From: a virus
Virus record (IMG/VR): IMGVR_UViG_3300035169_000087
Span: 1 to 64,000 of that record
DNA length: 64,000 bases
Strand: one strand, 5' to 3'
The notes under the pieces are model-generated. The model searched no databases. It was not told the DNA's origin and worked only from the letters and a program-made list of their open reading frames with translations. A program made the translations under genes and the position numbers. Positions within the stretch are counted from its first letter, which is position 1; every line of letters begins with the position of its first letter. Of this stretch, positions 24,717 through 28,415 are shown one piece after another.

Positions 24717-25231
24717 TCGAGCAGACCGCGCTACGCATCGACACCTGTCACGACCTGAACCAGGCCGCCCAGACCCCCGCTGCGGCCCACGCCTCCGCCG
24801 CAGCGGGCCAGCCTCCCCTCGCGTCCACCGGCCCGCACGCCGACGCGCGAGGGGAGGGCACCACCTACACCGTCGCGCTCCCCGCCGGACTGCCGCTACT
24901 CAACGCCAACGACCGGATGCACTGGCGGCGGCGCAACGACATGACACAGGTCATCGTCGACGCCGCGATCGTCATGACCCGGAAGGCCAAAGTCCCCCGG
25001 CTGGAGCGGATCGCCATCAAGGCGGTCCTGCACCCCACCGACAAGCGGCGCCGCGACCCTCACAACTGGTATCCGTCGATCAAAGCGGCGATCGACGGCG
25101 TCGTACGGTCCCGCGCGGTCATTCCCGACGACGACTCCACGCATCTCGTCGATGTCTCCGTCGCACTCGGCGAACCGGTCAAGGGCGGCCAGCTGATTCT
25201 GTTGATCACGCCTCTCGGCGGTGCCTCATGA
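24713..25231 (+). CDS. rusA: RusA-like Holliday junction resolvase
   Basis: 172 residues from GTG overlap. The N-terminal 45 residues are an Ala-rich extension. RusA motifs follow: LLNANDRMHWRRR, then KRRRDPHNWYPSIKAAIDGVV and IPDDDSTHLVDV with the catalytic Asp residues (R-D-x-x-N ... K ... D, then DDD). It resolves branched DNA made by phage recombination. Confidence 0.85.
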   Translation: MIEQTALRIDTCHDLNQAAQTPAAAHASAAAGQPPLASTGPHADARGEGTTYTVALPAGLPLLNANDRMHWRRRNDMTQVIVDAAIVMTRKAKVPRLERIAIKAVLHPTDKRRRDPHNWYPSIKAAIDGVVRSRAVIPDDDSTHLVDVSVALGEPVKGGQLILLITPLGGAS

Positions 25232-26745
25232 CGCTGCGGACCGCGAGCCTCTGCTCTGGCGTAGGCATGATCGACCTTGCCGTCGAGTCCGTGTTCCCCG
25301 GCGCGCAACTCGCCTGGTACGCCCAGTACGAGCCGCCCGACAAGGACGGCAAGATCGACCGGCACCAGTACGCCGCGCGCATCATGGCGCACCACTGGCC
25401 CGGTGTCCCCAACCACGGCGACATCACCGCCATCGACTACGCCGGCGTCGAGCCCGTGGACCTGCTCACCGCCGGGTTTCCGTGCACGGACCTGTCCCTG
25501 GCCGGTAAGCGCGCGGGCCTCATGCCGGGCACGCGCTCGGGCGTTTGGTCGCACGTCGCCCGCGCCATCGGCGCACTGCGCCCCTCGCTCGTGCTCATTG
25601 AGAACGTCAGGAGCCTGACCAGTGCGAAAGCCCATTGCGACGTGGAATCCTGCCCGCGGTGTATGGGAGATCCCGGAGACGGCGACACCCCTGTTCCGTA
25701 CCTGCGAGCACTCGGCTGTGTTCTCGGCGACCTGGCCGATCTCGGGTTCGATGCGGAGTGGACGTGCCTACCCGCCTCGGGCGTCGGAGCCCCGCACAGG
25801 CGCGAGCGGGTCTTCGTCCTCGCGTGGCCTGCTGCCGACGCCGCGAACCTCGGACACGAACGGCGCGGGCTCACATGGGGACGGCGGCCCGGACCTTCGC
25901 ACGGCGGTGTCGCTGCTTCCGACGCCCAGGGCGTCGGACGGGGAGAAGGGCGGCCCGAACCAGCGCGGCTCGTTGGGGGACCTGATGCTGCCGAGCGCCG
26001 TAGCGCACCTGCTGCCGACGCCGAACGCCTCGGATCACAAGGGCAGCGGAGCGACGCAGGGCCGCATGAGGGGCAGACGTCTGCGGACGTCTGCGGACGT
26101 GGACCTACCGGAGGCCGTAGCGCTCCTACCGACCCCGAGGGCGAGCGACACGGGCACGCCGGGGCGACGGGCCTCGGAGGGCTTCCGGCCGCCGCTCTCG
26201 CAGGTGCTCCTGCCGACCCCGATGGCGGCCGACGGGCAGCGGGCGAGCCTGACGATGCCCAGGGGCAACCCGACGCTCGCTGGCGCACTACTGCCGACCC
26301 CGACGACGCAGCACTCGGCGCGCAACGCGACCGCGAACCGCAAGGACCCGAAGCCGACCACGGACGTCACCGGCTGGACCCTTCAGGACGTTTTCTGGGC
26401 TGGGGACCATACGAGCCCGCCATCCGGCGCTGGGAACACATCCTCGGACGCCCCGCGCCCAGTCCAGTTGACGATCGAGGACGCCTGAACCCGCCGCTTC
26501 CCGAATGGATGATGGGCCTGCCCGACGGGTGGGTCACCGCCGTGCCCGGGATCCCGCGCAACCCTCAACTGCACGCGCTCGGCAACGGGTGCGTGGTACA
26601 GCAGGCCGCGCACGCGCTGCGGCTCCTGCTGCCCGCGTACCTCGCTGCATGTCAACCAGCTGACGGTTTCGGTGTTATCCGGAACGGTATCCGTCAACAG
26701 GCTACTACCGGCGCGGCCTGCGGCGATCCGGGACGTGCGGCGTGA
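25228..26745 (+). CDS. DNA (cytosine-5) methyltransferase
   Basis: 505 residues, ATG in ATGA overlap. Motif I SLCSGVGMIDLAVE, motif IV with catalytic Cys GFPCTDLSLAG, motif VI LIENVRSL, motif VIII APHRRERVFVL, then a long variable region (about 205-385) of Asp/Gly/Arg/Pro repeats of the ADPDGGRR type. The end GPYEPAIRRWEHILGRP ... EWMMGLPDGWVT ... LGNGCVVQQAAHAL holds the target-recognition end and motif X. It likely protects phage DNA from host restriction. The variable region is also read in a second frame. Confidence 0.9.
   Translation: MTLRTASLCSGVGMIDLAVESVFPGAQLAWYAQYEPPDKDGKIDRHQYAARIMAHHWPGVPNHGDITAIDYAGVEPVDLLTAGFPCTDLSLAGKRAGLMPGTRSGVWSHVARAIGALRPSLVLIENVRSLTSAKAHCDVESCPRCMGDPGDGDTPVPYLRALGCVLGDLADLGFDAEWTCLPASGVGAPHRRERVFVLAWPAADAANLGHERRGLTWGRRPGPSHGGVAASDAQGVGRGEGRPEPARLVGGPDAAERRSAPAADAERLGSQGQRSDAGPHEGQTSADVCGRGPTGGRSAPTDPEGERHGHAGATGLGGLPAAALAGAPADPDGGRRAAGEPDDAQGQPDARWRTTADPDDAALGAQRDREPQGPEADHGRHRLDPSGRFLGWGPYEPAIRRWEHILGRPAPSPVDDRGRLNPPLPEWMMGLPDGWVTAVPGIPRNPQLHALGNGCVVQQAAHALRLLLPAYLAACQPADGFGVIRNGIRQQATTGAACGDPGRAA
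25622..26488 (+). CDS. Nested protein in the +1 frame of the methyltransferase gene
   Basis: 288 residues from GTG 25622, fully inside the methyltransferase gene. The N-terminal 70 residues look like a real domain (ATWNPARGVWEIPETATPL, FSATWPISGSMRSGRAY). Five spaced copies of LLPTPRxSD-like units follow (LLPTPRTSD, LLPTPRASD, LLPTPNASD, LLPTPRASD, LLPTPMAAD), then LLPTPTTQ. I know similar LLPTPxASDG proteins as hypothetical actinobacterial and phage proteins. Function unknown. Each unit reads as Asp/Gly/Arg repeats in the methyltransferase frame. Confidence 0.5.
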   Translation: MRKPIATWNPARGVWEIPETATPLFRTCEHSAVFSATWPISGSMRSGRAYPPRASEPRTGASGSSSSRGLLPTPRTSDTNGAGSHGDGGPDLRTAVSLLPTPRASDGEKGGPNQRGSLGDLMLPSAVAHLLPTPNASDHKGSGATQGRMRGRRLRTSADVDLPEAVALLPTPRASDTGTPGRRASEGFRPPLSQVLLPTPMAADGQRASLTMPRGNPTLAGALLPTPTTQHSARNATANRKDPKPTTDVTGWTLQDVFWAGDHTSPPSGAGNTSSDAPRPVQLTIEDA

Positions 26746-27751: not shown

Positions 27752-28023
27752 TCGCGTTGCGGGCCGGTCAGGCGCTCGTCGCGTCCTCGCCGCTGCTGGT
27801 CCTCGGGTGTGCGCTCGGGGCGAAGTTGCACGCCGCTGCGGTGGTGTTCGGGTGTGCCGGTGGCGCGCTCGGGGCGTTGCTGCTGGGGATCGTGCTGTGC
27901 GCGATCGGCGGTCCGGCGGCGGGCGAGCTGGCCGCTGAGGCTTCCCGCCCGTCGCTGGCGGACCTGCCGTGCGGTGGCTGTGGTCAGTGCGACGGCTGCG
28001 ACCTGCGGTGGGCGGACGTATGA
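27748..28023 (+). CDS. Membrane protein with C-terminal CxxCxxCxxC cluster
   Basis: 91 residues from GTG overlap. Two hydrophobic segments (about 9-30 and 30-58) are followed by a tail with CGGCGQCDGC. Four Cys spaced by two residues resemble a ferredoxin-type or zinc cluster. A membrane protein with such an end could sense redox or metal; this is a guess. Confidence 0.6.
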   Translation: MIALRAGQALVASSPLLVLGCALGAKLHAAAVVFGCAGGALGALLLGIVLCAIGGPAAGELAAEASRPSLADLPCGGCGQCDGCDLRWADV

Positions 28024-28415
28024 GCGCGCCCGAGACGTCCGCGGTGTGCCTCAAGGGCCGGCGGGAGGAGTTCGGCTCATCCCTGCAACTGCCCGCCGCC
28101 GAGGACGTGGTGTACGTGGGCCGGGCGATGCACCAGGGCGGGTGGCGGCTGGCCCGCTCGCCGTTCGCGAACCCGTTCCGGGCTCAACGGGTCGGCGGCG
28201 CGGCGAAGGCCGTCGAACTGTACTTCATGCACCTGCGCGCGCATCACGAGCTGGTGGCGCGGGCTAGGCGTGAGTTGGCCGGGAAGCGACTGGGCTGCTG
28301 GTGTCCGACGGATGACCCGCAGCTGTGCCATGCCGCACTGCTCGCTGCCGTTGTGGCCATGGATGCCGAGGCCCTGGCGCGGCTCCTCGGCGGGCCGATC
28401 GGAGCGGCACTGTGA
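28020..28415 (+). CDS. DUF4326 protein
   Basis: 131 residues, ATG in ATGA overlap. DUF4326 signature is clear: VVYVGRAMHQGGWRL, SPFANPF, ELVARARRELAGKRLGCWC and CHAALL. The family is widespread in actinophages; its Cys/His residues suggest metal binding. Biochemical role unknown. Confidence 0.8.
   Translation: MSAPETSAVCLKGRREEFGSSLQLPAAEDVVYVGRAMHQGGWRLARSPFANPFRAQRVGGAAKAVELYFMHLRAHHELVARARRELAGKRLGCWCPTDDPQLCHAALLAAVVAMDAEALARLLGGPIGAAL

Follow-up and report, generated by a model that had tools for sequence, protein, structure and literature searches.

Does a reading frame that stays open inside a phage cytosine methyltransferase gene encode a second protein, and if so, what does that protein contribute to the enzyme? 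The locus comes from a 99-kb IMG/VR virus record (IMGVR_UViG_3300035169_000087), of which the first 64,000 nucleotides, here called the window, were analysed; the methyltransferase gene is designated A and the nested frame B. A first-pass annotation had described a +1 open reading frame of 288 codons inside the methyltransferase, at 25622–26488, which proved exactly right, and had proposed that this frame is under selection. Two features of known enzymes frame the question. M.EaeI is a C5 methyltransferase of two polypeptides, as is M.EcoHK31I, whose small chain is read from another frame within the large-chain gene. Multispecific phage C5 methyltransferases of the SPbeta, phi3T, rho11s and H2 type have several recognition modules arranged one after another in the interval from motif VIII to motif IX.

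Organization of the locus

The features of the locus, in window coordinates, are:

25228–26745, plus strand: gene A, C5-cytosine DNA methyltransferase, 505 aa (PF00145, phrog_363, ordered motifs)
25246–25281, plus strand: motif I of A
25477–25512, plus strand: motif IV of A
25600–25617, plus strand: motif VI of A
25609–25613, plus strand: Shine–Dalgarno sequence AGGAG, 8 nt upstream of B's GTG, in the A codons right after motif VI (ENV-R-S)
25622–26488, plus strand: gene B, nested in the +1 frame, 288 aa, inferred partner or target-recognition subunit (open reading frame, phrog_1008, dual-coding tests)
25622–25828, plus strand: B N-domain (BN; PIATWNP...FSATWPISGSMRSGRAY...), by comparative evidence truly dual-coded with A from just after motif VI through motif VIII
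25786–25824, plus strand: motif VIII of A, GAPHRRERVFVLA, inside the overlap with B
25829–26412, plus strand: six LPTP cassettes in B's frame, read by A as an ADPDG-type linker (substitution pattern, shared cassette types)
26401–26466, plus strand: pre-IX helix of A, WGPYEPAIRRWE..., inside the overlap with B
26401–26488, plus strand: C-terminal tail of B, ...PVQLTIEDA, overlapping A's pre-IX helix WGPYEPAIRRWEHILGRPAPSP
26479–26535, plus strand: motif IX of A
26569–26619, plus strand: motif X of A

A was identified as a C5-cytosine DNA methyltransferase by its Pfam match (PF00145, E=3.8e-23, residues 4–199) together with the ordered motifs I, IV (PC), VI (ENV), VIII, IX and X. It also matches phrog_363 (PHROG search, E=6.3e-53), and against TIGR00675 it scores 80.5 bits, under the cut-off of 100.65. 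Motifs I, IV and VI precede the overlap with B and motif X follows it, as expected from the initial claim that the conserved motifs lie outside; that claim does not hold, however, for motif VIII and the pre-IX helix, both of which fall inside. Directly upstream of A lies a RusA-like resolvase gene (phrog_34), and the flanking genes include one for an ASCH-domain-like protein whose match is just under the Pfam cut-off; the surroundings are an ordinary phage replication neighbourhood. A DUF4326-domain protein (E=2.5e-17) is encoded a short way downstream of the methyltransferase, at 27969–28415.

B is contained wholly within A's open reading frame, begins with GTG and ends at a TGA overlapping the LN codons with which motif IX of A opens. 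The window belongs to a group of loci termed class I below, in most of which 7 codons separate the end of B from the WMMG of motif IX; the last residues of B frequently form a Q-L-x-[LI] tail. B residues 4–151 align with positions 72–215 of the phrog_1008 profile, named "DNA methyltransferase" (E=4.7e-36), the C-terminal third of which matches A rather than B in the window; Pfam, NCBIfam and PDB sequence searches with B returned no match. Six LLPTP units start at 25829, 25913, 26009, 26123, 26207 and 26288. They do not form a tandem repeat at the DNA level: a repeat finder reported only a 10-bp repeat in this region, at 26076–26100, and a tandem-repeat origin was rejected.

The composition of the overlap changes with the frame. 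Before the overlap, the GC content of A's codons is 0.67/0.50/0.92 at positions 1/2/3; in the LPTP array it is 0.89/0.69/0.63, so that the high-GC 'third position' there belongs to B. Across B's stretch the third frame contains six stops and B's frame only its terminal one. Openness of B in the window alone is nonetheless weak evidence, since the locus is 71% GC and only ~1.2 stops would be expected under synonymous shuffling (p0=0.24). An antisense open frame of 283 codons (25437–26288, minus strand) also overlaps the LPTP array and is probably a composition effect of the high-GC array.

Many class I and class III B proteins end in QLTIEDA, QLNLLDA, QPTLWDD or PAQLALFG, which resemble sliding-clamp-binding peptides (QL[SD]LF); such tails are seen in the window (26460–26488) and in loci L004, L007, L087, L093, L137, L152 and L188. 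A C-terminus of this kind could recruit the enzyme to replicating DNA.

Selection on the nested frame

Homologues were collected with A and, separately, with B as query; the resulting loci are not mutually independent and the tallies are not exhaustive. Of the 156 loci in which profile searches matched the B N-domain, 154 have it in the +1 frame relative to A's catalytic domain (frame 0), over a range of ~44% to 74% GC. Four-fold degenerate sites of A are conserved only under the B overlap, with a mean column identity of 0.54 inside versus 0.34 outside (Mann–Whitney, p=1.4e-9). Among the closest, high-GC relatives of the window the direction is unchanged and the effect smaller (0.60 inside versus 0.48–0.51 outside).

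A cross-GC shuffle test was performed in which a profile of the +1 peptide was trained only on loci with GC>0.6 and scored on loci with GC<0.55, with synonymous shuffles of A serving as controls. Real sequences scored 76 bits versus 30 for shuffled ones, and all 38 loci (38/38) exceeded every one of their own shuffles, whereas in two control stretches of A the real and shuffled scores were nearly equal (37 vs 36 and 49 vs 46 bits). The low-GC loci of this test contained 0 stops in +1, compared with 3.6 per locus in +2. An earlier count of overlaps with zero stops was circular because the overlap had itself been bounded by stops, and only the HMM shuffle part of that analysis is used here.

The start of B carries a signature of its own. 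A Shine–Dalgarno sequence of at least 4 nt precedes the B start in 65% of start windows versus 11% of matched control windows. The arginine that follows the ENV of motif VI, whose codon forms this sequence, is AGR in 65/93 cases versus 188/1203 for A's other arginines, and the bias persists above 58% GC (29/52 versus 74/808). A further line of evidence comes from class III relatives of an E. coli prophage enzyme fetched by A alone (n=80, GC 0.46–0.63): in 80/80 the +1 frame stays open over almost the full length of the gene, with a median of 263 of 268 codons, as against median open lengths of 47 codons in +2 and 117 codons in shuffles.

These comparisons, which are of sequence alone, establish B as coding, conserved and under selection, with a start signal that is its own and also conserved; as far as alignments can tell, the part in which two conserved sequences are truly dual-coded is the B N-domain, from 25622 to about 25830. 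The proposal that the second frame is under selection is thus borne out by the cross-GC shuffle test, the four-fold sites, the start signal, the array substitutions described below and class III openness. The finding that would have refuted it, a nested frame broken in homologues with an intact methyltransferase, did not appear: the N-domain is open in essentially all loci fetched by A, and the class III relatives are open without exception.

Coding of the LPTP array

Which frame owns the array was addressed by comparing cassettes of the same type between loci. In class I, substitutions amount to 0.18/0.14/0.46 at B codon positions 1/2/3, a pattern like that of loci where B alone is coding. 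Stops in B's frame of the class I array number 1 in 4900 codons, versus 105 (21 per 1000) in the third frame. A's frame has 0 stops in 4900 codons there, versus 10 in 424 (4 loci) in class II, whose A terminates before the array. The B-type substitution pattern and the frame-specific stop counts together indicate that B carries the sequence and that A is merely kept open; on this comparative evidence, A's ADPDGxGR reading is a by-product kept only free of stops. The earlier idea that one repeat shapes two proteins needs refining, as the two are not shaped equally: amino-acid selection in the array acts on B.

Relative to A, LPTP sequences lie in +1 in 592 cases, in 0 in 62 and in +2 in 24. Among 663 LPTP units, 42 cassette types recur in at least three loci at ≥65% identity, some of them at this level between carriers whose A proteins are only 25–45% identical. 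Twelve cassette types were found in more than one frame relative to A, so it is the peptide, not the DNA register, that is the unit kept. L131 and L014 are single-chain relatives; there A's own frame encodes these same cassettes, in the stretch that separates motif VIII from motif IX. Genomes were scanned with a single sequence because a broad B alignment offered no stretch conserved enough, and the pattern used, DGEKGGPN, over-represents that cassette type in the counts.

In six loci, L162 (DLane), L163 (Babsiella), L180, L013, L097 and L109, the LPTP array begins in B's frame and continues in A's, the cassettes switching chains along the array.

Distribution of motifs between the two frames

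Relatives fall into several architectures, although the counts per class depend in part on matches to short motif patterns and many loci lack a clear IX or X match. Class I, which comprises the window and the Streptomyces phages Darolandstone and Raleigh, retains IX–X in A's frame. In class II (e.g. L022–L080, and mycobacteriophage Phanphagia gp65/gp66), A stops after VIII and B, which also matches phrog_1008, runs on into IX–X. Class III, about 26 loci, has IX in B and X in A; its members come from Pseudomonadota, Leptospira, Acinetobacter, Paenibacillus phage Lily, cyanophage S-H1 and E. coli prophages. Mixed or single-chain loci (DLane, Babsiella, L014, L131) carry later cassettes in A's own frame. 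By these alignments the cassettes are demonstrably modular and move between frames, and the methyltransferase motifs are distributed across both frames in relatives.

The second protein is left unannotated in most RefSeq and phage records examined. Babsiella gp55 is annotated inside gp54, and Lily gp63, annotated as 'g62 internal gene', matches phrog_1008. In E. coli (L215:1500–2253), Leptospira (L206:1303–2088) and Acinetobacter (L207:1273–1986), an open +1 frame spans almost the full methyltransferase gene and contains LPTP-like units and/or motif IX, the Acinetobacter IX-like segment being divergent; the annotation shown has no second gene. In E. coli PCP07014 (L214:1500–2261), the methyltransferase is marked as a pseudogene with an internal stop, and the nested frame also has a stop in the region. 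The single-chain methyltransferase frame of L131 (3561–5139) stays open far past motif X into an unrelated long open frame.

An AlphaFold model of the single-chain L131 protein matches M.HhaI, with the cassettes not folded confidently (pLDDT 30–50), and a class II B modelled alone gave a poor model (pTM 0.33); no TRD fold was thus seen.

A proposed two-chain enzyme in overlapping frames

The best explanation, to which we assign a probability of roughly 0.75, is that overlapping frames here encode the two chains of one C5 methyltransferase, with B as the partner subunit responsible for target recognition; the complex, the recognition and the anti-restriction role are all inferred, without expression, binding or methylation data. 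A would carry the catalytic and cofactor motifs I–VIII, plus IX and X in the window's lineage. B, started from its own predicted Shine–Dalgarno/GTG just past motif VI, would consist of a small N-domain followed by six exchangeable LPTP cassettes. The two chains are inferred to assemble, with B supplying the recognition part normally sited between VIII and IX. A's ADPDG stretch would be a linker whose frame is maintained open to let A extend to motifs IX–X. By analogy with multispecific phage methyltransferases, each cassette may account for one recognition specificity, and such a set would shield phage DNA from several of the host's restriction enzymes. In Bacillus phages, a single polypeptide holds an array of several recognition domains, by which many restriction systems are evaded (PMC12707154). 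As to origin, an ordinary single-chain enzyme may have had its recognition region shifted into another frame by indels; this region may then have been rescued as a separately started protein, its N-domain overprinted on the region up to VIII.

The placement of IX or IX–X in B's frame in other lineages makes B probably a partner subunit of the same enzyme rather than an unrelated passenger, a judgement that again relies on sequence data. A in the window has all motifs I–X and could be active without B. The modular cassettes occupy the VIII–IX position and in the window lie on a second chain; no confident fold was predicted for the cassettes, and recognition is an inference only.

The alternatives differ in how much of this evidence they can accommodate. 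The one that retains some weight, though we consider it unlikely, accepts B as a genuine nested protein with the methyltransferase or the replication machinery as its binding partner, but not as the recognition part; B could, for example, be a regulator or a recruiter acting through its QLxL-type tail. B's fold is unknown, class I A has every conserved motif, and many B proteins end in peptides like those that bind the sliding clamp (QLTIEDA, QLNLLDA, QLALFG), all of which would suit such a role; it does not readily account for the presence of these same cassettes on A itself, from VIII to IX, in relatives with a single chain, or for the IX or IX–X carried by B in other classes, which ties B to the catalytic fold. 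Much less probable is that A alone is the complete enzyme, with the ADPDG stretch as its recognition domain and B a relict of an ancestral split enzyme. The uninterrupted motifs I–X of the window's A are compatible with this, but array substitutions follow B's codons, not A's, and B's frame is almost free of stops where the third frame is not.

Programmed frameshifting from A into B's frame, yielding an A–B fusion chain with no start of its own, appears similarly improbable. Class II frames are in register for a +1 shift near A's end, just after motif VIII; the N-domain, however, is conserved in B's frame upstream of any shift point and would be missing from a fusion product, and B has its own Shine–Dalgarno sequence and start codon under selection. 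That B is a chance open frame produced by high GC and A's codon bias can be dismissed for practical purposes. Long open frames are indeed common at the GC content of the window, where B's openness is not significant by itself, but the frame is kept with sequence conservation at GC 0.44–0.55 and is open through nearly the whole gene in the class III relatives at GC 0.46–0.63; the cross-GC shuffle test and four-fold sites contradict chance as well.

With the partner-subunit reading extended to all relatives, we lean, by little more than even odds, towards a large superfamily, so far undescribed, of C5 methyltransferases with dual coding, spread over phages, prophages and plasmids of Actinomycetota, Pseudomonadota, Bacillota, Bacteroidota and Spirochaetota and in cyanophages. 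Its recognition subunit would lie in +1 inside the catalytic gene, IX and X would migrate between frames, and a library of ~30-residue cassettes shuffled between phages and frames would set specificity. In bacteria and phages, few long genes nested on the same strand are backed by strong comparative evidence; B recurs across phyla and in class III spans nearly the entire gene. Cloning and annotation of phage methyltransferases would be affected, as the annotated gene, once recoded for expression in another host, would no longer encode the second subunit. Should the cassettes set specificity, they would form a ready natural library with which methyltransferase targets could be read from sequence and the restriction systems that a phage evades could be predicted.

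Comparison with known systems

Literature searches, with most subscription papers outside their scope, found no paper describing such nested or overlapping phage cytosine methyltransferases. The PHROG name of phrog_1008 is silent on nesting. Among two-polypeptide enzymes, M.AquI has motifs I–VIII in one chain and IX–X in the other, and M.EcoHK31I has IX in the small chain and X in the large one (PMC3404938). The M.AquI division, I–VIII and IX–X over two chains, is matched only by class II relatives; unlike it, the window keeps IX–X in the large chain, and its nested chain starts upstream of VIII and has an extra N-domain. M.EcoHK31I (YGGCCR) is similar to the window in having its second chain in another frame inside the large-chain gene, and class III relatives are like it in layout, with IX in the small chain and I–VIII plus X in the large. 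Unlike M.EcoHK31I, the window encodes both IX and X in the large chain and has an LPTP cassette array in the nested one. The SPbeta-type multispecific enzymes are a possible parallel, the modular cassettes falling at the VIII–IX position with a recognition function that is only inferred; in those enzymes the modules belong to one polypeptide, whereas here they are encoded in a nested frame, on a second chain.
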